Origin: Anaerotignum sp. MB30-C6 | GTDB lineage: Bacteria; Bacillota; Clostridia; Lachnospirales; Anaerotignaceae | Length of the DNA stretch: 64,000 nt | Assembly (NCBI RefSeq): GCF_030908465.1 | Contig: NZ_CP133078.1 | Span: 868,001 to 932,000, forward strand | Reading direction: 5' to 3' | Part shown: positions 32,897 through 62,319 of the stretch, piece after piece | Layout: each line of letters opens with the position of its first letter | Numbering within the stretch: the first letter of the stretch is position 1 | The notes under the pieces: model-generated | What the model was told of the DNA's origin: nothing | What the model saw: only the letters and a program-made list of their open reading frames with translations | Database searches by the model: none | Position numbers and translations under genes: made by a program

Positions 32897-33548
32897 AGTT
32901 TCTTTAGGGGAGATAACCCTTCCTGTTGCGCCAAGTAAAATTACTATGAAGGTAAAGAATAACAACAAGACTATGGAATTAATTGATGGAAGAGAAATTA
33001 ACTTTCTAAGAACTCCAGGGCTTAAGGAGTTTAGTTTTGAGTTTCTTATTCCTCATATAAGGTATCCCTTTGCAGAGTATCCTGATGGGTTTATGACTGC
33101 ACAGCAGTATATTGAAGCACTTGAATTGATGAAAATGAAAAAAGAGCCTTTTACGTTTCAAGTTCAAAGAATACTGCCAAGTGGAAAAGAATTACTTAAG
33201 ACCAGTGAAAGAGTATCTTTGGAGGATTATACCATTACCGAAGATACAGGCAATGGTTTGGATTTTATGGCAAGTGTGACGCTAAAACAGTACAAAGAGC
33301 ATAAATCGGTAAATACCCCAATGGTGCAAGTCACGCAAGACGCAGTGATCGTGAAAGAAGAAAAGCAGCGGGACAGCAAGAAGGACACACCCTCTACTTA
33401 TACCGTAAAAAAAGGGGACAGTCTTTGGAAAATCTGTAAATCACAGTTGGGGGATGGTGCGAAATATAAGGAAATTGCCGAATTAAACGGTATTTCCAAT
33501 CCCAATCTAATTTATCCGGGGCAGGTGATAAAGCTTGGTACAACTTAA
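32883..33548 (+). CDS. xkdP: LysM tail protein (XkdP-like)
   Basis: The 221-residue protein reads MCLYKVSLGEITLPVAPSKITMKVKN at the N-terminus (tail protein domain) and has a C-terminal LysM module (about residues 172-218, STYTVKKGDSLWKIC...ELNGISNPNLIYPGQVIKL) that would bind peptidoglycan. It overlaps the tape measure gene by 14 bases; GGAGG is inside that gene. Confidence 0.88.
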   Translation: MCLYKVSLGEITLPVAPSKITMKVKNNNKTMELIDGREINFLRTPGLKEFSFEFLIPHIRYPFAEYPDGFMTAQQYIEALELMKMKKEPFTFQVQRILPSGKELLKTSERVSLEDYTITEDTGNGLDFMASVTLKQYKEHKSVNTPMVQVTQDAVIVKEEKQRDSKKDTPSTYTVKKGDSLWKICKSQLGDGAKYKEIAELNGISNPNLIYPGQVIKLGTT

Positions 33549-34491
33549 AATCATAAACGGTGAGAGGGAATACACACCTGTTGTCGTTGGGGATATAAAA
33601 TGGTCAACGGAACGAGCGGGAGCACCTGGGATTTTAACCTTTGATGTGGTTAAAGATGAAAATCTTAATTTCCAAGAGGGGAACTTAGTCCAGCTATTTA
33701 TGGGTGAAGTTCCTATTTTTTATGGTTATGTATTTCAAAAGAAGAGAAACAAGGGCAAAATCATCTCCGTAACCGCTTATGATCAGTTGCGATACCTGAA
33801 AAATAAGGACAGTTTTATCTTTGAGGGGCTTACTGCTACCCAATTTATTACAACGGTGGCGGATATCTTCTCATTGAAGGTGGGGGAGATTACAGATACG
33901 GAGTATGTCATTGAAAAAGGATTGTTAAATGACAAAACCTTATTTGATATGTTCCAAGAATTGCTTGACACTACCCTTATGAATACGAAAAAACTTTTTG
34001 TATTATATGATGACTTTGGCAAGCTGACCCTAAAAAATATCGAAGACATGAAGCTGGACATCATGCTGAATCAAGAAACTGCAGAGGATTTTGACTATTC
34101 AACTAGCATTGATGGAGAAACCTATAATCAGATTAAGCTTGCCTATGATGACAAAGAAGCTGGTTATCAAAAGGGTTTTGAGGAAAAAGATGAGGGAAAT
34201 ATAGAAAAATGGGGGGTATTACAATATTACGAAAAGATAAATTCCAACGTTGGCATAGAAAAAAGAGCCAAAACCCTTTTGGAGCTTTACAACCATAAAA
34301 CAAGGACGTTAAGTATTAAAAATGCTTTTGGTTCCCCAAAGGTACGGGCTGGGTGTAGTGTTGCGGTATCTTTACATTTAGGGGATATCAATGTGAATCA
34401 TTACTTTGTTTGCGAGAAGGTCACCCATACTTTTCAAGGGGATATGCATTTGATGGATCTTACATTGAGAGGAAGTGATTTCATTGTCTGA
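33535..34491 (+). CDS. xkdQ: Baseplate hub protein (XkdQ/gpD-like)
   Basis: The 318-residue protein reads KIINGEREYTPVVVGDIKWSTERAGAPGILTFDVVKD and EGNLVQLFMGEVPIFYGYVFQKKRNK, the hub (gp27/gpD) fold of PBSX-type tails. TTG start at 33535, overlapping xkdP by 14 bases, with CAGGTGAT upstream. Confidence 0.85.
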   Translation: MVQLKIINGEREYTPVVVGDIKWSTERAGAPGILTFDVVKDENLNFQEGNLVQLFMGEVPIFYGYVFQKKRNKGKIISVTAYDQLRYLKNKDSFIFEGLTATQFITTVADIFSLKVGEITDTEYVIEKGLLNDKTLFDMFQELLDTTLMNTKKLFVLYDDFGKLTLKNIEDMKLDIMLNQETAEDFDYSTSIDGETYNQIKLAYDDKEAGYQKGFEEKDEGNIEKWGVLQYYEKINSNVGIEKRAKTLLELYNHKTRTLSIKNAFGSPKVRAGCSVAVSLHLGDINVNHYFVCEKVTHTFQGDMHLMDLTLRGSDFIV

Positions 34492-34894
34492 TTTGGCACA
34501 ATTAATAAAGCAGGCGGCAAAGGATCAAATGGAATCATCTAAGCCTATGGATATTTTGATGGGGGAAGTGGTTTCTGCGGCTCCGTTGAAAATTAAGTTG
34601 GATGGGAAAATCACCTTGACGGAGTCATTTTTGATTTTAACAAAGGCAGTTGTGGATTATTCAGTGGGTATGACGGTCAACCACAGTACCGAAAGCCATA
34701 CTCACAGCCATAGTTACATAGATGACAATTCCACCAGAACCACAGATCCCCATACCCATAACCACGCTTATGTGGGGAGAAAAACCTTTATAATTCACAA
34801 CAAACTGAAGGTTGGAGATCATGTTATTTTATTACGGGCAAAAGGTGGGCAGAAATTTGTTGTACTTGATATAGTAGGAGGTGGGACATTATGA
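34475..34894 (+). CDS. xkdR: DUF2577 tail protein (XkdR-like)
   Basis: The 139-residue protein has the DUF2577 layout and a histidine-rich stretch (TESHTHSHSYIDD, DPHTHNHAY) typical of baseplate spike-adjacent proteins that hold metal. Start is GTG 34475 or TTG 34484 (homologues begin SDLAQLIKQ). It overlaps both neighbours. Confidence 0.82.
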   Translation: MISLSDLAQLIKQAAKDQMESSKPMDILMGEVVSAAPLKIKLDGKITLTESFLILTKAVVDYSVGMTVNHSTESHTHSHSYIDDNSTRTTDPHTHNHAYVGRKTFIIHNKLKVGDHVILLRAKGGQKFVVLDIVGGGTL

Positions 34895-35292
34895 CACCGA
34901 AAGTAAATGAAGATTTGGCGAATATTTTTAAACGGTTGGCTATACCTTCAAAAACCTATTGGTTAAACAGGGATACCAATGAAATTTTCGGGTATTGTGA
35001 CGGGGTAGAAGCGGTGAAGCAGGCGGTGTATAAGGTACTCCTAACAGAGCGGTACGACTGGGTGATTTATTCATGGAACTATGGAGCAGAACTAAAGGGA
35101 GTATTTGGGAGACAAATGACTTATGTTTATCCAGAAGTAAAAAGAAGGATTGAAGAAGCTTTATTACAAGACGATCGGATTAAAAAAGTACGGGATTTTT
35201 CCTTTGAAAAAAGAAGAAATACCCTTCTTGTGACCTTTATTGTTGAGTCCACAGAGGGAGTTTTTGAAAGCCAGGTGAATGTAAATGTATGA
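34891..35292 (+). CDS. xkdS: DUF2634 baseplate protein (XkdS-like, gp25 type)
   Basis: The 133-residue protein is of the W/gp25-like lysozyme-fold family: LNRDTNEIFGYCDGVEAVKQAVYKVLLTERYDWVIYSWNYGAELKG and VYPEVKRRIEEALLQDDRIK. It has an ATGA overlap with the previous gene. Confidence 0.88.
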   Translation: MTPKVNEDLANIFKRLAIPSKTYWLNRDTNEIFGYCDGVEAVKQAVYKVLLTERYDWVIYSWNYGAELKGVFGRQMTYVYPEVKRRIEEALLQDDRIKKVRDFSFEKRRNTLLVTFIVESTEGVFESQVNVNV

Positions 35293-36346
35293 AAATAAGA
35301 CTTTTGAAACCATATTAAACACGATGTTGGATCGGGTACCCCCAGACATAGATAAGAGAGAGGGGAGTATTATTTATGATGCCCTTGCTCCTGCTGCGTC
35401 AGAGCTTTGCCAGATGTATATCGACCTTGACACAGTGCTAAACGAAACCTTTGCAGACACTGCCAGCAGGGAATACCTTATTCGGAGGGCAAAAGAAAGA
35501 GGGATAACACCTTATGAAGCCACAAAAGCAATTGGAAAGGCTGTGTTTAATCTTTCTGTTCCTATTGGCGGCCGTTTCAATTTGAACCAATTTAACTATA
35601 GTGTGGAAGAGGTGATATCTCCTCAAGATTTTAGCTATAAGGTCATTTGCGAAACAGAAGGAAGCCAAGCGAACCATAACCTTGGTACGCTGATTCCCAT
35701 TGATTTTATCAAAGGATTGACCAAGGCAGAATTGGTTGAGGTTTTGACTCCAGGGGAGGACGCAGAGAGTACGGAGGGTTTGCGAAAGCGATATTTGAAC
35801 AGCTTTGATAAGCAAGCCTTTGGTGGAAATCGAGCGGATTATTTGGAAAAAATCAATGCCATATCTGGTGTGGGCGGCTGCAAAATATATCGTGCTTGGA
35901 ATGGGGGCGGTACGGTGAAATGTGTGGTGATTGATTCAGAGTATCGAAAGCCAACCCAGAGTCTAATTGGAGATGTTCAGACTGCTGTTGATCCTACTCA
36001 AAATGCGGGGGAAGGCTTAGGAATTGCACCCATTGACCATGTTGTTACCATTGATGGTGTAGGGGAAACGAAAATTGATATTTCTACAACCATTACCTAC
36101 GAAAGTGGATGGAGTTTTGCCGAGTGCCAGCCCTATATACAAGAAATTCTGGACAGTTACTTTTTAGAATTAAGCAGGGTGTGGGCAGAAAGCAATAACA
36201 TCGTGGTACGAATTTCCCAAATTGAGTCTAGGCTTTTGGATATGAATGGAATTCTGGACATTGAAAATACAACCATTAATCTGGAGCAAAAGAATTTGAT
36301 GTTACAAGAGGATTGTATTCCCATAAGGGGTGATTTCCATGGCTGA
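35285..36346 (+). CDS. xkdT: Baseplate J protein (XkdT-like)
   Basis: The 353-residue protein begins MYENKTFETILNTMLDRVPPDIDKREGSIIYDALAPAASE and contains GFGGNRADYLEKINAISGVGGCKIYRAWNGGG, the baseplate J family core that forms the wedge of the baseplate. It overlaps xkdS by eight bases and the next gene by eight bases. Confidence 0.92.
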   Translation: MYENKTFETILNTMLDRVPPDIDKREGSIIYDALAPAASELCQMYIDLDTVLNETFADTASREYLIRRAKERGITPYEATKAIGKAVFNLSVPIGGRFNLNQFNYSVEEVISPQDFSYKVICETEGSQANHNLGTLIPIDFIKGLTKAELVEVLTPGEDAESTEGLRKRYLNSFDKQAFGGNRADYLEKINAISGVGGCKIYRAWNGGGTVKCVVIDSEYRKPTQSLIGDVQTAVDPTQNAGEGLGIAPIDHVVTIDGVGETKIDISTTITYESGWSFAECQPYIQEILDSYFLELSRVWAESNNIVVRISQIESRLLDMNGILDIENTTINLEQKNLMLQEDCIPIRGDFHG

Positions 36347-36884
36347 GATACAAAGTTATTTTCCCGACTTAATGAAGGAAGTGAAGGAATTTCAGAGGCT
36401 TGCAGAGGCTGAGAATCCCGAGCTTCTTTTTTTATGGAGTGAATTGGGACAGGTTTTGGATAATCAATTCATTGACAGGGCAACAAAAACAGGTGTGGCC
36501 AGACGAGAGAGGATGTTAAGAATTACACCGAAGGCGACGGACACACTGGAGGAGCGGAAGTTTCGGTTATTGGCACGGTACAATGAAAATTTGCCTTATA
36601 CGTTGCGGACGCTACATAGTCAGCTTTCCATCCTATGTGGGGAAAAGGGGTATCGGCTGGAAATCAATTATGGTGCCTTTACCCTAAAATCAAAGCTAGA
36701 GTTGACCAACAAAAAGAATGTGGAAGCCGTGGGGGAAATGCTGGAGAGGATTGTGCCCATGAACATGCTGTTGACGGTGGAGTTGATGTACAACCAACAC
36801 CAATTATTACGGCAGTTTACCCATGAGGCTATGAAGGCATATAACCACGTTGGATTAAGAGAGGAGGCATTGGGAAATGGCTGA
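36339..36884 (+). CDS. xkdU: Putative baseplate protein (YmfQ/XkdU family, DUF2313)
   Basis: The 181-residue protein reads MAEIQSYFPDLMKEVKEFQRLAEAENPELLFLWSELGQVLDNQFIDRATKTGVARRERML, the family opening that recruits the fibre. The ATG at 36339 follows AAGGGGTGAT. Confidence 0.85.
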   Translation: MAEIQSYFPDLMKEVKEFQRLAEAENPELLFLWSELGQVLDNQFIDRATKTGVARRERMLRITPKATDTLEERKFRLLARYNENLPYTLRTLHSQLSILCGEKGYRLEINYGAFTLKSKLELTNKKNVEAVGEMLERIVPMNMLLTVELMYNQHQLLRQFTHEAMKAYNHVGLREEALGNG

Positions 36885-38214
36885 GTTTACAGGGAATTTT
36901 AAATTGGAAAAGCCTGCACAGAATGAGTTTTATAATGTGGAGGTGCAGAATCAAAATATGGATAAGATTGATGCAGCTTTGGCGGAAGCGGGAAATGATC
37001 CGCAGTTGGAAGTGGATGTGGCGGAAATTAAGGCAAGGATTGGAACTACTGTGGATACTGGGGGCAGTGAAACTGGAGGAACGATATTTGCTAAGCTGAA
37101 TAAAGTTATACATGATACTTGGGGGATGGTTACAAGTATCGGGAAGACCGATGATACGGGGGCAACAGAAACTACAGGGACGGTCATGGGAAAGCTGAAT
37201 AAACTGGTGCACATGGATTTAAATGTCACTGCTAAAATTGTCTGCAAGGGGCTTATCGGTACCAAGTTTACCATTTCGCACAATGACAAATATTTAGATC
37301 CATTTGTGATTGAAATTACAGTAAGTAATTCAGTGCAGGTTGAGGGGAATATTTACGCTGTGATTACCCCTGTTCCAATAGGCAATTATAACGTTGTTGT
37401 AGAGCTTTCAGGCAAAACAAAAAATTCTACGGTCAATGTATCCACAGTAGGAGAATTCTTCATGATACCATATTCGTTTTATACGCCGATTCAAAATTTC
37501 ACAACAAATGGAACCTTGACCATACCTGAAGGTGTATCGAAGATATTTATAACGGCGATTGGCGGTGGTGGTTACGGCGGCCGTGGAGCAGAAAAACGAG
37601 ATGAAATTTTGGGGGGACCGGGTGGCGGCGGCGGAGATAAAGGTGAGCTTGTTATAAAAAAGGAGTATGCTGTCACACCTGGTTCAACCCATGCAATTAC
37701 AATAGGTACCGGGGGATATATTCCTTCGGCAAAGGACGGCAAGCCAACTATAATGGGCACATTGCTCACGCTCTCAGGTGGACTCGGAGGGACAGATGCT
37801 ACAAGCAGAACAAATGGAACCGGCCATGGGAGTGCAGGTAATGGCGGTGGCGGCTCTTATGGTGATTCAGGGAAGGCTGCCACAGATGTAAATGGTGGTG
37901 CCGGTGGTGCAAAAGGCGTTAAGGAGCCTGTAAGCGGTACACAGTATAACGGTGGCGGTGGTGGTGGCGGCGGCGGTGGCGGCATAGATTTTGATGGAGA
38001 ACAATCAAGTGCCGCAAAAGGTGGAGATGGGGGTCAAGGTGGCAAAAATACCGGGGGATATGCTTCATCCGGAGAAAATGGAAGTGGCTATGGCTCCGGT
38101 GGTGGCGGTGGCGGCGGAATGGGAAGTTCTGCGTCATCATTACTTGGCGGATATGGTGGAAGTGGAAAAAATGGTATAGTTATCATTTACACAGGTATAA
38201 ATATTGTAGGCTAG
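36877..38214 (+). CDS. Glycine-rich tail fibre/adhesin
   Basis: The 445-residue protein starts MAEFTGNFKLEKPAQNEFYNVEVQNQNMDKIDAAL, a tail-fibre N-terminus. Two tandem repeats follow (IGTTVDTGGSETGGTIFAKLNKVIH and IGKTDDTGATETTGTVMGKLNKLVH), then a beta domain (residues ~110-215). The C-terminal ~220 residues are extremely glycine-rich: long GGGG runs alternate with short loops (GGGGGGGGGGGIDFDGEQSS...) and the chain ends in NGIVIIYTGINIVG. This recalls polyglycine-II host-binding domains of some phage adhesins. It is probably the receptor-binding part. A chaperone-like gene follows. Confidence 0.82.
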   Translation: MAEFTGNFKLEKPAQNEFYNVEVQNQNMDKIDAALAEAGNDPQLEVDVAEIKARIGTTVDTGGSETGGTIFAKLNKVIHDTWGMVTSIGKTDDTGATETTGTVMGKLNKLVHMDLNVTAKIVCKGLIGTKFTISHNDKYLDPFVIEITVSNSVQVEGNIYAVITPVPIGNYNVVVELSGKTKNSTVNVSTVGEFFMIPYSFYTPIQNFTTNGTLTIPEGVSKIFITAIGGGGYGGRGAEKRDEILGGPGGGGGDKGELVIKKEYAVTPGSTHAITIGTGGYIPSAKDGKPTIMGTLLTLSGGLGGTDATSRTNGTGHGSAGNGGGGSYGDSGKAATDVNGGAGGAKGVKEPVSGTQYNGGGGGGGGGGGIDFDGEQSSAAKGGDGGQGGKNTGGYASSGENGSGYGSGGGGGGGMGSSASSLLGGYGGSGKNGIVIIYTGINIVG

Positions 38215-38226
38215 GGGGGAAAGGCT

Positions 38227-38562
38227 ATGAATTATGCTATGGTTTTAAAAAATAGAGTAATAGACGTTTTGCTTGATCAAGAAAAGGAGCCATACTATCC
38301 ACCTGATCCCGAAGGGAATAACGTCTTAGCGATTCCCTGTGTAGATACTATAGCAATAGGTATGCTGTATGATCCTGAAACAGGAGAATTTATGGAGGAT
38401 GTGAGCTTACAGCCCCAGCCTGAGCCAAGAAGCATGGAACTTCTCATGCAAGCACAGGCAGATGCTGAATTACGGGACTTTGCAATCCAGCAGGGGCAGG
38501 AAATGTTGGCACAGCAAATGGCGGATATTGAATTAGCAATGTTAGGAGGTAATGTGATATGA
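38227..38562 (+). CDS. XkdW-like small tail protein
   Basis: The 111-residue protein (MNYAMVLKNRVIDVLLDQEKEPYYPPDPEGN) has N-terminal tail-fibre-associated features and a C-terminal acidic coiled coil (AQADAELRDFAIQQGQEMLAQQMADIELAML). It lies between fibre and XkdX as XkdW does; it may help fibre assembly. It has a good AGGGGGGAAAGG site. Confidence 0.65.
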   Translation: MNYAMVLKNRVIDVLLDQEKEPYYPPDPEGNNVLAIPCVDTIAIGMLYDPETGEFMEDVSLQPQPEPRSMELLMQAQADAELRDFAIQQGQEMLAQQMADIELAMLGGNVI

Positions 38563-44232: not shown

Positions 44233-44715
44233 ATGTGGTTAATACCTGCAATCGCAGCAGTAATTTTAATTGGATTAGATCAGGCAACAAAATATATGGC
44301 ATTGATCAAACTCCAACCCATAGGCTCCATGGTTTTAATAGATGGTTTTATGGACTTAACGTTTGTCAAAAATCCAGGCGTAGCTTTTGGGATGTTTTCG
44401 GGTCAACGGTGGTTTATTCTCTTGTTGACAGGAGTTATTACTGTTGCTTTGTTGTATTTTTATGTAAGTTTGCCGAAAACGAAAGAGTATAAGTTTGTAC
44501 GGATGACCATGGTGCTTATTTTTGCAGGGGCTATTGGTAATATGATTGACCGAATTCTTAGAGGATACGTGGTTGATTTTTTCGAATTTACATTTTTTGA
44601 GTGGCCTGTATTTAATGTGGCGGATATTTACGTAGTAGTTGGTGTTATGGTTTTGGCGTATTTGATTATGTTTGTCATCAAAGACCCTGAAGAAGAAAAG
44701 AAAAAGGATGAATAA
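44233..44715 (+). CDS. lspA: Lipoprotein signal peptidase LspA
   Basis: The 160-residue protein has four membrane helices and both catalytic aspartate motifs (GNMIDR and FNVADI) plus NPGVAFGMFSG. It cleaves lipoprotein signal peptides, such as that of the protein at 30293. Confidence 0.97.
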   Translation: MWLIPAIAAVILIGLDQATKYMALIKLQPIGSMVLIDGFMDLTFVKNPGVAFGMFSGQRWFILLLTGVITVALLYFYVSLPKTKEYKFVRMTMVLIFAGAIGNMIDRILRGYVVDFFEFTFFEWPVFNVADIYVVVGVMVLAYLIMFVIKDPEEEKKKDE

Positions 44716-44716
44716 T

Positions 44717-45631
44717 ATGGGATATTTTACTTTTGGGGCAGAGCAGGATGATATCGGCTGTCGCATTGATGTTTTTATTGCTGAAAATATGGAAAGTCTT
44801 TCTCGAAGTGGAGTACAAAGGCTGATTGAAGAAGGTCATATACGCTTAAACGGTGCCAGCGTGAAAGCGAATTATAAATTGCGGGAGAAGGATGTCATTG
44901 ATGTAGAGGTTCCTGAGGTAAAGCTTGTGGAAATTTTACCAGAAGATATTCCACTGGATATTCTATATGAGGATAAGGATGTTATTATTGTGAATAAGCC
45001 ACAGGGCATGGTTGTACACCCTGCACCGGGACATACTTCGGGGACACTGGTAAATGCCCTTATGTTTCATTGCGGCGATGAACTTTCGGGAATTAATGGA
45101 GAAAAACGTCCGGGGATTGTGCACCGTATTGATAAGGATACCTCTGGGGTTTTAATGATTGCAAAAAATGACACTGCCCATCAGTCCTTGGCAGAGCAGT
45201 TGGCGAATCATAGCATTACAAGAAAGTATAATGCCATTGTGTTTAACGGTTTTCAAGAAGAAGAAGGCATCGTGGATCAGCCCATTGGTAGAAATCCTTT
45301 GGATAGAAAGAAAATGGCAGTGACCCAGAAGCATAGCCGCAGGGCAGTAACCCATTATAGGGTAATTGAGCGGATGGGGAATTTTACGCTGATTGAGGCA
45401 CAACTAGAAACGGGAAGAACCCATCAAATTCGTGTTCATATGACTTATATTGGACATCCTTTATTGGGAGACTTGGTGTATGGGCCAAAAAAACAGCCCT
45501 TTAAGTTGGAAGGACAAGCATTGCATGCCAAAGTCTTGGGTTTTATTCACCCCACAACAGGAGAATATATGGAGTTTGAAGTACCATTGCCAGATAGTTT
45601 TAAAAAGTTATTAGAGCGATTAAAGGCTTGA
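44717..45631 (+). CDS. rluD: RluD-family 23S rRNA pseudouridine synthase
   Basis: The 304-residue protein has an N-terminal S4 domain and the catalytic HRIDKDTSGVLMIAK (aspartate in HRIDKDTSG). The ATG at 44717 directly follows the lspA stop with AAAGGATGA as ribosome site. The order lspA-rluD-pyr is that of B. subtilis lspA-ylyB-pyr operon. Confidence 0.95.
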   Translation: MGYFTFGAEQDDIGCRIDVFIAENMESLSRSGVQRLIEEGHIRLNGASVKANYKLREKDVIDVEVPEVKLVEILPEDIPLDILYEDKDVIIVNKPQGMVVHPAPGHTSGTLVNALMFHCGDELSGINGEKRPGIVHRIDKDTSGVLMIAKNDTAHQSLAEQLANHSITRKYNAIVFNGFQEEEGIVDQPIGRNPLDRKKMAVTQKHSRRAVTHYRVIERMGNFTLIEAQLETGRTHQIRVHMTYIGHPLLGDLVYGPKKQPFKLEGQALHAKVLGFIHPTTGEYMEFEVPLPDSFKKLLERLKA

Positions 45632-45650: not shown

Positions 45651-46580
45651 ATGTCGCTGATGAAAAAAGATTTTTTTGGTCTAAAAGACCTGTCTGCGGA
45701 GGACATTCGATATATTCTTGGTACGGCAGAGACTATGAAATATATTTTGAGTCAGAAGAATAAAACGTCCCCCCACTTAAGGGGAAAATCAGTTATTATT
45801 TTATTTTACGAGGCTAGTGCAAGGGCGAAGCTATCTTATGAATTGGCGGCAAGGCATTTAAGTGCCAGTGTTGTGGATATGACCAGCTCAATTCAAAATA
45901 AAGAGTTTGACAGCCTTTTGGACATGGGACAGTTGGTTGACCAAATGGGGGCGGATTTTATTATTTTACGCCATCCTATGGCTGGTGCATCCCAACTGAT
46001 GGCAAGCACAGTAGAGGCCTCTGTTATCAATGCAGGGGATGGGTTCAACGAAAATCCGGGCCAATCTTTGTTGGACTTGATGACAATTAAGGAACAGAAG
46101 GGTGGCTTTGAAGGCCTTAAGGTTGCCATTGTGGGAGATTTGGTTCATAGCCGTGTATCCAAAAGCAATATATGGGCTTTGACAAAGCTTGGTGCAGAAG
46201 TTCGTGTTTCCGGCCCACCCACCTTGATTTCCCCAGAAATTGAAAGGTTTGGTGTCAATGTATACTTTGACGCCAGGGAGGCTGTGAACAATGCCGATGT
46301 TATTTTAACCACTCGAATGCATAGAAATAGCCGCCATCCCATGGTTTTACCCTCCTTGGATGAATACAAGAAATTTTTCCGAATTGATGAGGGCTTGTTG
46401 CGGTATGCAAAAAAAGATGCCATTGTGATGCACCCAGGGCCCATACGTCGGGGGATTGAAATTTCTACTGGTGTAATCAATGGCCCCCAATGCATCATTA
46501 ATGACCAAATCGCCAATAGTGTTGCCGTTAGAATGGCAATATATTATATCTTGACACAAATGGGAGGTGCTTTTCGATGA
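45651..46580 (+). CDS. Aspartate carbamoyltransferase-like protein with degenerate active site
   Basis: The 309-residue protein aligns end to end with ATCase catalytic chains (NAGDG..., HSRVSKSN, HPGPIRRGIEI). However, the carbamoyl-phosphate loop S-T-R-T-R is S56-A-R-A-K60. The His of HPTQ (E. coli His134) is Asn135, the TSVQKGET loop is changed, and R-x-Q (E. coli Gln231) is R222-M-H224. Arg107/His108 (RHP) and Arg168 (HSR) are kept. The frame is intact with a good site (AGGAGGG). It overlaps the next gene by four bases (ATGA). In B. subtilis the true pyrB sits here. I infer a pseudoenzyme or a changed substrate; a weak ATCase is not excluded. Confidence 0.8.
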   Translation: MSLMKKDFFGLKDLSAEDIRYILGTAETMKYILSQKNKTSPHLRGKSVIILFYEASARAKLSYELAARHLSASVVDMTSSIQNKEFDSLLDMGQLVDQMGADFIILRHPMAGASQLMASTVEASVINAGDGFNENPGQSLLDLMTIKEQKGGFEGLKVAIVGDLVHSRVSKSNIWALTKLGAEVRVSGPPTLISPEIERFGVNVYFDAREAVNNADVILTTRMHRNSRHPMVLPSLDEYKKFFRIDEGLLRYAKKDAIVMHPGPIRRGIEISTGVINGPQCIINDQIANSVAVRMAIYYILTQMGGAFR

Positions 46581-47848
46581 AAACCTTATTGAAAAACTGT
46601 CGGGTAGTATCTCCAGGTTTTGATGAAGAGGACGTATACGATATTTATGTAGAAAATGGTATTATCGAAGAAATTGGGAATGATTTAGACAGAAATGATG
46701 GGAAAGTAGTGGATATTGGGGGAAATATGGTTTTACCAGGGTTGATTGATATGCACTGTAATATTTGCGACCCAGGTTTTGAGTACTTAGAAGATATTGA
46801 AACGGCTTCTCGCAGTGCAGCAAGGGGCGGATTTACAACCATTACTTGTGAGCCCAATACAGATCCTGTTATTGATAATAAAACTGTAGTGGAATACATT
46901 GTGTCAAAATCTAAAAACAATTCCTTGGTTAATATGTATCCCTATGGGAGTATGTCTATGGGATGCAAGGGTCAAGAGATGGCGGAAATTGGGGAGATGT
47001 TTGACGCTGGCATTGTTGGGGTTTCCGATGGAGATGAGTTTACCGACGAAGCATCGTTTTTGAGAAATGTAATGCTCTATGCCAAAATGTTTGATTTGCC
47101 TGTCATCACTCATTGCGAGGATCGGGGATTATCAGGCAAGGGAGTTATGAACGAAGGCTTTATGGCATCCTGCCTAGGTTTAGCGGGAATGCCCAGAGAG
47201 GCAGAAGAAGTTATGGTTGCTAGAAATATTATTTTAGCGGAAAATACGGGGGCAAGGCTTCACATAGCCCACGTGAGTACAAAGGGTTCAGCCCAATTAA
47301 TACGTGAGGCGAAAAAAAGAGGTGCAAAGGTTACGGGAGAGACCTGCCCCCATTATTTCCTCCTGACGGATGAGGCAGTGGAGAATTATAATACCTTAGC
47401 TAAGGTAAACCCGCCATTACGTACCCATGAGGATGTGGAGGCAATATTAAAAGCCATAGCTGATGGAAGTATCGATGTGATTGCATCGGGACACAGCCCT
47501 TCCAATGAGGGGGATAAAAGCAAGGTATTTGCCAGTGCGGTGTATGGTATTTCATCTTTGGAAACGGCTTTTTCTTTAAGCTATACAGGCTTAGTGAAAA
47601 CAGGAATTATTACTCTCCCGAAACTAGTTGAATTAATGAGTACAAAACCGGCAGAAATACTAAAACTGGATAATAAGGGGTCTATTGCGAAGGGGAAGGA
47701 TGCGGATTTAATCGTGGTGGATTTACGCCAAAGCTACCATATTGATCCCAAACATTTTGCCTCCAAAGCAAAGTTTTCACCCTTTGCAGATTGGGAAGTA
47801 AGAGGTAGAGTGATTTACACCATGGTTGGTGGAAAGCTTCTCATGTGA
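46577..47848 (+). CDS. Dihydroorotase-like protein lacking catalytic metal ligands
   Basis: The 423-residue protein is a full-length amidohydrolase of the class I PyrC type (GLIDMH, IETASRSAARGGFTTI, HCED, HVSTKGSA, NPPLR). Normal HVHLREPG is here H60-C-N-I-C-D-P: second His to Asn62 and Arg to Cys64. Normal ATDHAPH is ASGHSPS (303-309), which loses the catalytic Asp and the last His. His179 and His232 are kept. It therefore lacks the residues needed for the binuclear zinc site and the general base. The frame is intact and translationally coupled to the ATCase-like gene. A structural role, as in inactive DHO subunits of Pseudomonas ATCase, is a family precedent. Confidence 0.85.
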   Translation: MKTLLKNCRVVSPGFDEEDVYDIYVENGIIEEIGNDLDRNDGKVVDIGGNMVLPGLIDMHCNICDPGFEYLEDIETASRSAARGGFTTITCEPNTDPVIDNKTVVEYIVSKSKNNSLVNMYPYGSMSMGCKGQEMAEIGEMFDAGIVGVSDGDEFTDEASFLRNVMLYAKMFDLPVITHCEDRGLSGKGVMNEGFMASCLGLAGMPREAEEVMVARNIILAENTGARLHIAHVSTKGSAQLIREAKKRGAKVTGETCPHYFLLTDEAVENYNTLAKVNPPLRTHEDVEAILKAIADGSIDVIASGHSPSNEGDKSKVFASAVYGISSLETAFSLSYTGLVKTGIITLPKLVELMSTKPAEILKLDNKGSIAKGKDADLIVVDLRQSYHIDPKHFASKAKFSPFADWEVRGRVIYTMVGGKLLM

Positions 47849-47870
47849 TAAAAATAAACGAGGTGCAGGG

Positions 47871-50800
47871 ATGTATTTAAAACGATTGGATCTGCAGGGC
47901 TTTAAGTCCTTTCCCGAAAAAGTAAAATTAGAGTTTAACCAAGGCGTAACGGCAGTAGTTGGGCCGAATGGCAGTGGAAAAAGTAATGTTTCCGATGCCG
48001 TTCGTTGGGTTTTGGGTGAACAGCGAGCGAAAAGCCTCCGTGGGGATAAGATGGAGGATGTTATTTTTGCGGGAACAGAAAATAGGAAACCCCTTGGTTT
48101 TGCCGAGGTTTCTATTACCATAGATAATCAAGACCAAAAGCTGCCCTTGGAATACACAGAGGTTCAAGTTACCAGGCGGGTGTTTCGTTCGGGGGAAAGT
48201 GAATATCGAATCAACGGTACGGCGTGCCGATTAAAGGATATTCAGGAGCTTTTTATGGATACGGGCGTTGGTCGAGAGGGATATTCCATCATCGGTCAGG
48301 GCAGAATTGATGAAATCCTAAGCGCAAAAGGCGATGAGCGCCGACGGATTTTCGAAGAGGCTGCAGGCATTGTAAAATATAAAACCCGTCGGAACGAAGC
48401 GACCAGTAAGTTAGAAAAGGAACAGCAAAACTTGCTGCGTGTGGATGATATCATCGGCGAGCTTGAGGTTCAATTGGAACCCTTGGAAAAGCAAAGTGAA
48501 AAAGCAAAATGCTATTTGGCCTTCAAAGAAGAATTGAAACAGGCTGAGGTTGTAGCTTTTTGTAAGGACTTAGACAGCATGGAGCAAGAAATGGTAAAGC
48601 TGATTGAAAACAAAGCTTTGGCCGAAGAGCAGTTGCAAAATCACCTTTCTCAAGAAGAACGGAGTAAAGAAGCCGCCCAGAGGCTGAAGACCAAGGCGGA
48701 AGAACTGGAAGCCCTTTTACAGCAGCAAAACCAAGAAATTGCAGAGCTCCGAGGGGAAAAAGAACGCAAAGAGGGAGAAATTCGTCTAACGGAGGAGCAA
48801 CGGCAAAACGATATTACGAACCTTGAAAGAATCCGACAAGAGATTTCCCAAAAGCAGGAGCAGAAAGTGGAAAATGAAAACCAACTTGAACTTTGTAATA
48901 GTCGTATTACCGCTCTTTCCATTGAGAAGGAGCATCAGCAGGAAAAACTTTTGCAATTGGAAGATGCGTATGCATCTTTAAACTCTGCTTTGCACCGAGA
49001 TGAAACTCAAGCTGAAAACTATAAAGATGAAATTTTTCATCAAATTAAAATTGGCACAGAGGCTAAGGGTGAAATTGCCAAGCGTGAGGCTTTAAGAGAA
49101 CAATTTTTAAGCCGTATGGAACAGTTGCATAGGGAAAAAGGTCATTTGGAAAGCCGAATACATCAGTTTGAGGTACATATTCAGGTTTTGGATAAACAAG
49201 AGAATGATATGAAAGAAACCATCTCTTTTATGGAAAATGAACTGGGAGCTTTGGAGAAGGACAGGCTAGAAGCCCAGAAAGAGAAGGATGGTGCCCAGAA
49301 TCGTCTTTATAAAGAAGAAAAGAACCTTTCTGAAATTCGCTCCCGACTATCTGTTTTGAAGGAGATGGAAAGGGAAAACGAAGGCTTTTTTCATAGCGTG
49401 AAAAGTCTTTTGAATTTGCCTGATAAAGAAAATCGGGGTATTTGCGGTGCTGTTGGACAGTTGTTAAAGGTTGATGAAGCGTATGAGGTGGCCATTGAAG
49501 CAGCTTTAGGCGGTGCATTGCAAAATGTTGTTACCAAAACTGAGGAAGATGCCCGAGAAGCCATTGGCTACTTAAAAGCCAAAAACTTAGGCAGGGCAAC
49601 CTTTCTACCTATTTCTGCCATCAAAAGTCGTACTTTTGAGGGCAGACCTGCTATTTTAGATGAGGCGGGAGTCATTGGCACTGCCCATGAATTGGTAGGA
49701 TTTGAGGAAGTTTACCGCCAAGTTGTAGAGAATTTATTGGGACGAACCATTATTGTTAACAATTTGGAGCAGGCGGTAGTACTGGCAAAGAAGTATAAAC
49801 ATCAGTATAAAATGGTTACCTTAGAGGGGGATATTTTAAACCCAGGGGGGGCTATGACGGGTGGCTCCAAACAGAAAAAAGCAACCCATATCTTTAGCCG
49901 TAGCAGAGAAATCAACACCTTGCAGGATGATTTGGAAAGTGCAGGAAGAATTGTAAAAGGGCTACAAGAAAAACTGGCTCTTTCCCAAGAGGATATAGAG
50001 GAAGTTGAGAAGCAGATTGTTGAAAAACGAATGGAGTTGCAGAAGCTAGCCGTAACCCTTAACAGCAGCCACGGGGATCGAGAAAAAACAAATGACGATG
50101 TGGAAGAAAATCAGGAACGATTGCATTTGATTCTTTTGGAGGAAAGTCAGCTGAAGGAGCAGTTGACACGGGCTGATAAGGATATCCAGAAACAACAAGA
50201 AGCCCTTGCACTTTCCGAAAGAAAAATGGAGGAGTTCAGTGCAGAGCTTGGTAAGTTCCAAAATAACTTAAGCGACGAAAAAGGAAAACGTGACACGCTG
50301 ATGGAGGAAATTACAAGTTTTAGAATCAGTATCTCTAAAAGTAGTCAAAACATTTCTAACATACAAGAAACCATTTTACGATTAAATTCTGAAAATCAAG
50401 GGATTTTCAATCAAATAGACGAAGATAATCAGAAAATTTCTTCTTTGATTCAAAGTAGTGAAGAAAAGGAAAAACTAAAAGATAAACTGCGTATAGAAGG
50501 GGACTCCTTAGGTGAAAAAACCCTTCTGTTGCAAGAGGCTTTGGGTAAAACCTCTGAAGAAAAAGGAAAAGTTACCCAAGAAACGGAACAGATGGAGGAG
50601 CAGGCTAGGGAACAAAGGGAATCTGCTAGACAGATGGAAAATGAGCTTTTCCGTATTGAGACAAAAAGAGAGAAAATAGAAGAAGAAAAAATTCGCATTA
50701 CGACCCAAATGTGGGAAGAATATGAAATGACCCATCGTATGGCCAAGGAGTATGCCCAAAATAGGCAAAATGAAAAGGAAGGCCGCCCTGTGAAAGAAAT

Positions 50801-51434
50801 TAGAGGGGCAATACGAGCTTTGGGAGACGTAAACGTTGGTGCCATCGAGCAATATAAGGAAGTAAAAGAAAGATATGGCTTTTTAACGGGGCAAAGGGCG
50901 GATATCTTAGAGGCCGAAGAAAAATTGAGAGGCATTATCAATGAGCTTTCAATTTTAATGGAAAAGCAGTTTAGAGAGCAATTCCAGGTAATTTCTGATA
51001 ATTTTAGCCGTGTGTTTCAAGAAATGTTTGGCGGTGGTAAGGCGTATTTAAAACTGGTTGATACTGAGCGGGTTTTAGAGTCTCCCATAGAAATCGTGGC
51101 CCAGCCACCGGGTAAGAATTTGCAAAATATGCAGCTTCTTTCCGGCGGTGAACGGGCTCTGACGGCAATTGCCATTTTGTTTTCTATTTTGCATATGAAG
51201 CCATCCCCTTTCTGTATCTTGGATGAAATTGAGGCTGCTTTAGATGATGCAAACGTTAGCAGGTACGCTCTGTATTTGAAGAAGTTTGCTAAAGACACCC
51301 AGTTTATTGTTATAACCCATAGAAAGGGCACCATGGAGCACGCTGATGTATTGTACGGCGTGACCATGCAGGAAAAAGGGATATCTAAATTAATTTCTGT
51401 TGATTTTTCTGATGAGCAAAAAGATGCTATTTAA
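47871..51434 (+). CDS. smc: Chromosome partition protein SMC
   Basis: The 1187-residue protein has Walker A GPNGSGKSN, long coiled coils, a hinge (about residues 510-670, GRATFLPI and GGAMTGG), the ABC signature LLSGGERALTAIAILFS and Walker B FCILDEIEAALDDANV. It works with ScpAB in chromosome condensation. ATG 47871 after GAGGTG; an earlier in-frame start at 47826 would overlap the previous gene and lacks a site. Confidence 0.97.
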   Translation: MYLKRLDLQGFKSFPEKVKLEFNQGVTAVVGPNGSGKSNVSDAVRWVLGEQRAKSLRGDKMEDVIFAGTENRKPLGFAEVSITIDNQDQKLPLEYTEVQVTRRVFRSGESEYRINGTACRLKDIQELFMDTGVGREGYSIIGQGRIDEILSAKGDERRRIFEEAAGIVKYKTRRNEATSKLEKEQQNLLRVDDIIGELEVQLEPLEKQSEKAKCYLAFKEELKQAEVVAFCKDLDSMEQEMVKLIENKALAEEQLQNHLSQEERSKEAAQRLKTKAEELEALLQQQNQEIAELRGEKERKEGEIRLTEEQRQNDITNLERIRQEISQKQEQKVENENQLELCNSRITALSIEKEHQQEKLLQLEDAYASLNSALHRDETQAENYKDEIFHQIKIGTEAKGEIAKREALREQFLSRMEQLHREKGHLESRIHQFEVHIQVLDKQENDMKETISFMENELGALEKDRLEAQKEKDGAQNRLYKEEKNLSEIRSRLSVLKEMERENEGFFHSVKSLLNLPDKENRGICGAVGQLLKVDEAYEVAIEAALGGALQNVVTKTEEDAREAIGYLKAKNLGRATFLPISAIKSRTFEGRPAILDEAGVIGTAHELVGFEEVYRQVVENLLGRTIIVNNLEQAVVLAKKYKHQYKMVTLEGDILNPGGAMTGGSKQKKATHIFSRSREINTLQDDLESAGRIVKGLQEKLALSQEDIEEVEKQIVEKRMELQKLAVTLNSSHGDREKTNDDVEENQERLHLILLEESQLKEQLTRADKDIQKQQEALALSERKMEEFSAELGKFQNNLSDEKGKRDTLMEEITSFRISISKSSQNISNIQETILRLNSENQGIFNQIDEDNQKISSLIQSSEEKEKLKDKLRIEGDSLGEKTLLLQEALGKTSEEKGKVTQETEQMEEQAREQRESARQMENELFRIETKREKIEEEKIRITTQMWEEYEMTHRMAKEYAQNRQNEKEGRPVKEIRGAIRALGDVNVGAIEQYKEVKERYGFLTGQRADILEAEEKLRGIINELSILMEKQFREQFQVISDNFSRVFQEMFGGGKAYLKLVDTERVLESPIEIVAQPPGKNLQNMQLLSGGERALTAIAILFSILHMKPSPFCILDEIEAALDDANVSRYALYLKKFAKDTQFIVITHRKGTMEHADVLYGVTMQEKGISKLISVDFSDEQKDAI

Positions 51435-60752: not shown

Positions 60753-60902
60753 TTATCTGCATCCGCAATTGTTATTGCATCCACAGTTGTTGTTACAGTT
60801 GTTGTTGCAGTTGTTATTGCAGTTGTTGTTGCATCCGCAGTTATTGTTGTCTACCTCGCAATTAGGAGAGCCGAACCACCGCAAGGAACAGTAGCTATTC
60901 AT
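60753..60902 (-). CDS. Asn/Cys-repeat microprotein (NNNC)n
   Basis: The 49-residue frame ends with nine cysteines in NNNC and GC steps: NNNCGC, NNNC three times, NNNCGC, NNNCGCR. The repeat codons are mixed (AAC/AAT, TGC/TGT), which indicates selection on protein rather than simple slippage. A proper terminator follows. However, neither the ATG at 60902 nor the TTG at 60950 has a ribosome site, and the start overlaps the stop of the serine recombinase (60895). The original 5' end has probably been displaced by the integrated element. Possible roles (metal binding, coat or crust component, modified peptide precursor) are unknown. Confidence 0.5.
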   Translation of the reverse strand: MNSYCSLRWFGSPNCEVDNNNCGCNNNCNNNCNNNCNNNCGCNNNCGCR

Positions 60903-62319
60903 TGTACAATAAATATAAATCAATAGACTTCGTTTCCTTGAAGAATACAACCTTTTCGATTAGATTTGAAGCGGCTAGAATCTTGTTTTCCATGGCTGTA
61001 TCACTTTCTAAAATATCAATTACCGATTGAATGTGATAAGCAAATTTTTCGTAATCAATAGGATGCTCTATGGACTGTTTTGCCAGCTCGTCTTTCAAGG
61101 AAGAGATTTCACTTTCGATGGTCATTTTATTTTGACGGTACTCTTCCAAGGAATCTATTTCCGCAAGAAAGGCTTCCTTTGCCTTTGCAAGTCTTTTCTG
61201 TGCCTTGCTTAACATCATGGATAGCATGGCAGTATTGTCGTGGCCTGATGCCGTTCGCTTTATATTGATTTTTTGTCCTTCCAGTAAAGTGGAGTCTTCC
61301 ACAGTGGTTTTTAACAAGGATAAAACGGACTGTTCTATAACGGGTACAGTCACGTAATGTGAAGTAGGGCATAATCCATTGCGATAGCCTTTACACTGAA
61401 AGAAAAATCCATTCGTACGGTTTATTACAAGTATACTTTCGCAATCAGAACAACGAACTAAACCACTAAGCCAGTGGGTTCGATGAAAAAGAGCATAGTC
61501 ATTTCTTGGACGTGCTTTGACTACTTCTTTAAATTTCTTGTTTGCTTCATCCCAAGTTTCCTCGTCTAAGATAGGTTTGAAATTGCTTTTTGATATTATA
61601 GTTTCACCAGGAGCGGGGTGCCAACGGGCATATCCTTTGTATGCAGGATTTTGAATAATATAGTCAATATGGCGTTGAGCAAAAGGATTACCAGTATGTA
61701 AACGGAATCCATTTTGATTCAACCGCTTTGCAATTAGGGAAGAAGAAACTCCTTTTAAAAAATCTGAAAAAATGCTTTTCACTACTTCCGCTTCTTGAGG
61801 ATGAATAGCTAATGTTCCTTTTTCGGAGCGGTACCCAAAAGGTGGCCTTGTTTGCCATCCACCAAGCTGTGCCTTTTTGGTCATACCTTTTTTTACTTCC
61901 TCAGCTAAGTTGAGGGAGTAGTATTCAGCCATGGCCTCAAGCATAGATTCATAAATAACGGCGAACTTGTCATCTTGGGGGATGGGTTCCTTTACGGAAA
62001 TAACCTTTACCCCATCTTTTTTTAGTAAGGCTTTGTATAGAACAGCATCCTCTTTATTTCTGGCGAAGCGGTCATATTTATGGACAATAATATATTTTAT
62101 TTTATTCTGCTTTTTTCTTGCTTGGCGAATCATCTCCTGGAAAGCGGGACGGTTCCCAGCTTCTTTACCAGAAATACCTTCTTCCATAAAGATAAACTCG
62201 TCAGGAAGCAAGTAGCGGTTTTTTAAACAAAACTCCCTTATATCGTCTAACTGAGCTGAGGGAGAATAGTCTGTTTGGTCGTTCGTGGAAACACGGACAT
62301 ATGCAGCGGCAATTTGCAT
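60895..62319 (-). CDS. Large serine recombinase of the right-hand integrated element
   Basis: The 474-residue protein has the resolvase catalytic domain (AAAYVRVSTNDQ with the catalytic serine, GISGKEAGNRPAFQEMI, KYDRFARN). A recombinase DNA-binding domain (GWQTRPPFGYR, LIAKRLNQNGFRLHTGNPF), a zinc ribbon (LVRCSDCESILVIN...CKGYRNGLC) and a coiled coil near the end follow. It is intact. AAAGGAGG precedes the ATG. Genes to the right (stalk-domain protein, HepT-like, ImmA) run in the same direction and fit a prophage or conjugative element. Serine recombinase genes usually lie next to one attachment site, so the left border is probably close to 60895. Confidence 0.93.
   Translation of the reverse strand: MQIAAAYVRVSTNDQTDYSPSAQLDDIREFCLKNRYLLPDEFIFMEEGISGKEAGNRPAFQEMIRQARKKQNKIKYIIVHKYDRFARNKEDAVLYKALLKKDGVKVISVKEPIPQDDKFAVIYESMLEAMAEYYSLNLAEEVKKGMTKKAQLGGWQTRPPFGYRSEKGTLAIHPQEAEVVKSIFSDFLKGVSSSLIAKRLNQNGFRLHTGNPFAQRHIDYIIQNPAYKGYARWHPAPGETIISKSNFKPILDEETWDEANKKFKEVVKARPRNDYALFHRTHWLSGLVRCSDCESILVINRTNGFFFQCKGYRNGLCPTSHYVTVPVIEQSVLSLLKTTVEDSTLLEGQKINIKRTASGHDNTAMLSMMLSKAQKRLAKAKEAFLAEIDSLEEYRQNKMTIESEISSLKDELAKQSIEHPIDYEKFAYHIQSVIDILESDTAMENKILAASNLIEKVVFFKETKSIDLYLLYNE

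Follow-up and report, generated by a model that had tools for sequence, protein, structure and literature searches.

What could be the role of two adjacent genes coding for homologues of an ATCase and a dihydroorotase, when catalytic residues have been lost from both products? This question is raised by pyrB* and pyrC*, two overlapping genes of Anaerotignum sp. MB30-C6 located in the 64,000-nucleotide stretch of DNA analysed here as a whole, the window (Table 1). The original prediction, made from the sequence of this stretch, was that they form a co-evolved pseudoenzyme pair, not randomly decaying genes, and could build the known DHO-ATC type shell with a new purpose. The observation behind it is right and understated: it extends far beyond the window.

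Table 1. Positions in the window of the degenerate pair and of its conserved neighbours.
Feature	Position	Strand	Description	Basis
lspA	44233..44715	+	conserved neighbour	ORF list, synteny
rluD-like	44714..45631	+	pseudouridine synthase gene, conserved, directly upstream of pyrB* (~20 bases between)	synteny
pyrB*	45651..46580	+	ATCase-like, 309 aa	ORF list, family profiles, motif alignment, AF2 model
ATGA overlap	46577..46580	+	pyrB* stop / pyrC* start, 4 bases	sequence
pyrC*	46577..47848	+	dihydroorotase-like, 423 aa	ORF list, family profile, Aquifex alignment, motif comparison
smc	47868..51434	+	conserved downstream neighbour in the window's family; adjoins rluD where the pair is absent	synteny

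PyrB* is a homologue of PyrB, with 305.8 bits against NCBIfam PRK00856 (cut-off 263) and 252.1 bits against TIGR00670 (cut-off 237). According to its AF2 model (pLDDT 85.7), the best solved match of which is B. subtilis ATCase (3r7d, Z 34.7), PyrB* would keep a good ATCase fold. The roles of ATCase residues, cited in E. coli numbering, are in part general knowledge. In part they are taken from the literature (PMC4581275). The SxRT phosphate-site motif, STRTR in ATCase, reads SARA(K) at residues 56-60, and is degenerate in the large majority of PyrB* homologues. The HPxQ carbamoyl-site motif is NPGQ, Asn135 replacing ATCase His134. The 80s loop is lost, with TSSIQNKEFDSL where the canonical enzyme reads SSVxKGESL; Ser80 and Lys84, which this loop provides from the adjacent subunit, are not kept (QNKEF for canonical xKGES), the position being variable among homologues. 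The RxQxER aspartate-site motif has become RMHRNS, with R-M-H at 222-224 and the equivalent of Gln231 gone. All of these changes had been described correctly in the original prediction; the loss of ligand residues that they were taken to represent is, however, partial. Arg58, Arg107 and Arg168 are retained in the window's PyrB*, and the HPxP motif is present as HPGP; in terms of ATCase residues, the Arg229 equivalent (R222) is retained, as are Arg54, Arg105 and Arg167. As far as the alignment indicates, the pocket is altered and not wholly stripped.

The same pattern is found across the PyrB* set. At the HPxQ histidine position, Asn is present in 71/71 distinct PyrB* proteins and His in 21/21 canonical class-A proteins; three further PyrB* proteins (L133, L248 and L249) have Asp, so that the site is never His, yet not strictly Asn. 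The equivalents of Arg54, Arg105 and Arg167, like the HPG of the HPxP loop, vary hardly or not at all, whereas relaxation is seen at those of Thr53, Thr55, Ser80, Lys84 and Gln231 and at the Arg within the 240s loop. Arginines are thus kept on the phosphate side of the pocket, and drift affects its aspartate side and the residues that the neighbouring subunit provides.

PyrC* scores 396.9 bits against the type-I dihydroorotase profile TIGR00857 (cut-off 279). Its motifs are HCNIC for HVHLR, SDGD for SDDG/SEDG, and SGHSP for TDHAP, which confirms that the partner is degenerate as well, the ATGA overlap being kept as stated in the original prediction. Aligned to the Aquifex enzyme (A. aeolicus numbering), PyrC* retains His61, His180 and His232 and has no equivalents of His63, Arg65, Asp153 and Asp305; the positions of His63 and Arg65 are variable across homologues. 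In the Aquifex dihydroorotase, His63 and Asp153 hold the alpha zinc, the ligands of which are His61, His63 and Asp153, with Asp305 beside it (PMC3880350). This site is not intact in PyrC*, in which HVH reads HCN and G takes the place of both Asp153 and Asp305. To note, the PyrC* proteins of loci L171-L180 keep PHYF, PPLR and SGHxP, but have lost the PNT motif and almost all metal ligands. A single-chain model of PyrC* (pLDDT 59, from a 10-row alignment) is too poor to use. Since the pair passes curated ATCase and dihydroorotase cut-offs, errors can arise in automatic annotation and in pathway counts, a risk that concerns gut and anaerobic genomes including those of the cultured Anaerotignum neopropionicum DSM 3847 and ASF356.

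The pathway itself is encoded elsewhere. A complete canonical locus, pyrC-carB-pyrK-pyrD-pyrF-pyrE-pyrB-pyrI, lies contiguously at 646-655 kb of the same genome, with the pyrB and pyrC motifs intact; the genome therefore has no need of the pair for UMP. The canonical pyrB with pyrI that the original prediction proposed to look for is thus present, and the idea that the pair is the genome's only pyrB/pyrC is rejected. An ornithine carbamoyltransferase is encoded at 42 kb. The genome also codes for a third dihydroorotase/hydantoinase-like amidohydrolase (G000:C1:1196880-1198118, L006), 27% identical to PyrC*, and a ZMP/ZTP riboswitch ahead of purE (L076:15206-15362) is found divergent from the canonical pyr locus. 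A second, canonical PyrB is present in 22 of the 24 PyrB* carriers tested. The exceptions are G145, a fragmented assembly, and G067, a 1.5-Mb reduced genome without PyrD, PyrF, canonical PyrB and canonical PyrC. G067 is the one clear auxotroph among the carriers, and its pyrC* is frameshifted; in this genome (L246 / L197) the full-length pyrB* frame is kept and pyrC* is split by the frameshift. PyrD is missing from 1/46 carriers as compared to 12/101 non-carriers, a difference that, uncorrected for kinship, is only suggestive of a dependence of the pair on the pathway and not significant (Fisher p 0.064).

Of the 147 genomes that were sampled within the order, 46 carry PyrB* by profile score, and the protein is degenerate in all of the 41 carriers read for motifs. 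The relatives belong to Anaerotignum (including A. neopropionicum and A. lactatifermentans), Tyzzerella An114, ASF356, Defluviitaleaceae, Vallitalea and Anaerotalea. Outside the order, a sample of 398 genomes from the phylum yielded no PyrB*; the strongest outside matches (L250-L267), which are those read for motifs, are canonical. In the tree, PyrB* forms one clade (support 100/99), with the canonical class-A PyrB proteins of the order as sister group and the pyrBI proteins at a distance. Changes are found in both partners as early as the base of this clade, which suggests that pyrB* and pyrC* changed together or nearly so. Both genes are present in 67/67 loci on contigs long enough to be tested, and no locus with only one degenerate partner was found among the homologues compared. 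The identical 4-base overlap occurs in 41/67 relatives, and an overlap of at least 1 base in 62/67.

Selection on the pair was estimated within one genus, from seven genomes, or six in the case of pyrC* and some neighbouring genes. The dN/dS ratio is 0.029 for PyrB* against 0.037 for canonical pyrB, and 0.048 for PyrC* against 0.076 for canonical pyrC; as synonymous distances exceed 1, the absolute ratios are rough and the comparison between genes is what counts. The pair also lies below smc (0.064), ftsY (0.074) and lspA (0.086); pyrD and pyrE give 0.052 and 0.043. At greater distances, conservation of PyrB* falls slightly below that of canonical PyrB (e.g. 0.69 vs 0.74 in G009). By these ratios, PyrB* and PyrC* appear to be under strong purifying selection, at least as constrained as their canonical counterparts. 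The motif changes reflect more than chance, as they recur in ~70 distinct homologues and dN/dS is near 0.03-0.05. That the genes are a decaying relic or functionless pseudogenes is hardly credible: the clean losses of the pair in several lineages and the frameshifted pyrC* of the reduced genome would fit, but the frames are open in dozens of genomes, with dN/dS of 0.03-0.05 and order-wide conservation, and random decay is rejected on these grounds. A co-conserved pseudoenzyme pair, as originally predicted, is well supported by the single clade, the universal co-occurrence, the purifying selection and the canonical pathway elsewhere. The pair is not essential, as it is cleanly deleted in G006, a member of the window's genus, and in several genera, with rluD joined directly to smc.

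The surroundings of the pair shed light on its origin. In the window's family it is tightly flanked by lspA-rluD and smc-ftsY, while the basal lineages (Vallitaleaceae, G055) have the order lspA-rluD-pyrR-uraA-pyrB*-pyrC*. Outside the order, canonical rluD-pyrR-pyrB-pyrC is found at the same place (L252, L260, L262). In Bacillus subtilis, the operon head is pyrR-pyrP-pyrB-pyrC, next to lspA-ylyB. The basal members display this same gene order; unlike in B. subtilis, the pair is degenerate and the remaining pathway is located elsewhere in the genome. Judged by synteny, the pair occupies the position of a Bacillus-type pyr operon. Between rluD and pyrR, an RNA resembling the PyrR site (RF00515) is matched in L198, L199, L201 and L235 at 48-49 bits (E 0.0003 to 0.0015), below the Rfam gathering score of 54; no RNA element reaches the gathering threshold at the window's locus. 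PyrR was not detected in the window's genome or in the genomes tested of its family, so that any pyrimidine link there would be indirect. Could the pair then have a housekeeping role that is linked to the genes now flanking it (rluD, lspA, smc, ftsY) and not to pyrimidines? The tight synteny with these genes, the ~20 bases that separate the pair from rluD and the failure to detect PyrR are consistent with such a role. We nevertheless regard it as improbable: the place is that of the ancestral pyr operon, with canonical genes in other orders and pyrR-uraA ahead of the basal pairs, and clean deletions leave rluD and smc joined. The neighbourhood would thus be inherited and say little on function, except for the pyrimidine link in basal lineages. 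A role in phage defence is rejected, as neither PyrB* nor PyrC* has a PADLOC match. Elsewhere in the window, by eye only, a run of ORFs at 33093-38562, just upstream of the division-gene cluster, resembles a phage tail/baseplate module, and an ORF at 60895-62319 on the minus strand, near the window end, resembles a large serine recombinase of a possible mobile element.

The basal copies also bear on the idea that the pair still weakly catalyses the canonical steps, mainly in the Vallitaleaceae. These copies are less changed, with Ser-Arg-Ser-Lys/Arg, often an R/KGES loop, IQ in the 240s loop and Asp305, and they sit with pyrR and uraA. Against this, their HPxQ histidine is Asn, their PyrC* has no equivalents of His63, Arg65 and Asp153, the tested Vallitaleaceae carriers also have a canonical PyrB, and the window's copy is more degenerate still, which makes residual activity very improbable.

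The main rival is that PyrB* is a re-tooled enzyme with a carbamoyltransferase fold, acting on another substrate or in another reaction with PyrC* as partner, the exchange of His for Asn being functional and not decay. The uniform Asn of the 71 distinct homologues, set against the His of the 21 canonical proteins, and the invariance of the other pocket arginines argue for it. Furthermore, the transcarbamylase family has changed its amine substrate before: YTCase and UGTCase, the latter once annotated as a pseudo ATCase, are ATCase-like folds with changed specificity (PMC4581275). Yet SxRT and HPxQ, two of the three motifs that the known transcarbamylases have in common, albeit somewhat variable (PMC4581275), are not intact in PyrB*. 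The Asp found in the three further proteins, the second-substrate loop and the trans Lys84, both as variable as if unconstrained, and the lost metal site of PyrC*, with nearly every ligand gone in L171-L180, also speak against an enzyme, and we consider it rather unlikely.

The pair is better described as an ancient, vertically inherited pseudoenzyme pair that would have stayed at the pyr operon position (lspA-rluD-pyrR-uraA-pyrB-pyrC) once catalysis had passed to a pyrBI locus or to a second copy of class-A pyrBC. Both proteins would then have lost ATCase and dihydroorotase chemistry, keeping their folds and coupled gene order; this course of events is shown or strongly indicated by sequence comparison. 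From the selection acting on the pair, we infer a new purpose. PyrB* and PyrC* may still associate in a DHO-ATC-like complex. The shell originally proposed is plausible by analogy, since such dodecamers are known for the parent class-A enzymes and for the homologues of Aquifex and Pseudomonas (PMC7053772, PMC3880350). As retention is asymmetric, the phosphate-side arginines being kept and the PyrC* metal site lost, the scaffolding role seen in class-A2 ATCases would fall to PyrC*, and ligand binding to PyrB*. Through its invariant arginines, PyrB* would hold an anionic metabolite without carbamoyl transfer, carbamoyl phosphate being a first guess, and sensing or regulation would be the task of the complex. 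We give an even chance to this reading, in which a DHO-ATC-like pair without catalytic activity would bind an anionic ligand in the service of pyrimidine homeostasis. More tentatively, and with a lesser chance of being right, the pair may be seen as an order-wide double pseudoenzyme that has evolved as one unit for the age of its clade and, beside a complete pathway, was turned into a complex for metabolite sensing or for a new enzymatic task.

Pseudo-dihydroorotases that aid an active ATCase are already known; no paper describing a pair with both partners degenerate was found in the searchable literature, in which subscription journals are mostly not covered. The pair would offer a natural experiment on a two-enzyme complex that loses its chemistry and keeps a function. 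Its subunits are homologous to those of the Aquifex aeolicus class-A1 DHO-ATC (3d6n): the PyrB* model matches 3d6n_B with Z 33.4, and PyrC* can be aligned along its length to 3d6n_A. In Aquifex, however, both subunits are catalytic, whereas PyrC* has lost His63, Asp153 and Asp305 of the metal site. In the fungal CAD-like proteins (Ura2, Chaetomium), a dihydroorotase homologue without zinc ligands also serves as a structural part (PMC7053772), but this pseudo-DHO domain is fused to an active ATCase domain, while PyrC* is a separate protein beside a degenerate ATCase. The Pseudomonas class-A2 ATCase is likewise encoded by a class-A pyrB-pyrC pair, the inactive dihydroorotase partner of which (PyrX/PyrC') serves assembly (PMC7053772). 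The pair shares with this class a dihydroorotase partner without intact metal ligands and differs from it in the ATCase subunit, the active site of which is not intact: the Pseudomonas PyrB is active and is the ATCase of the cell, whereas PyrB* is degenerate and exists next to a separate canonical ATCase.
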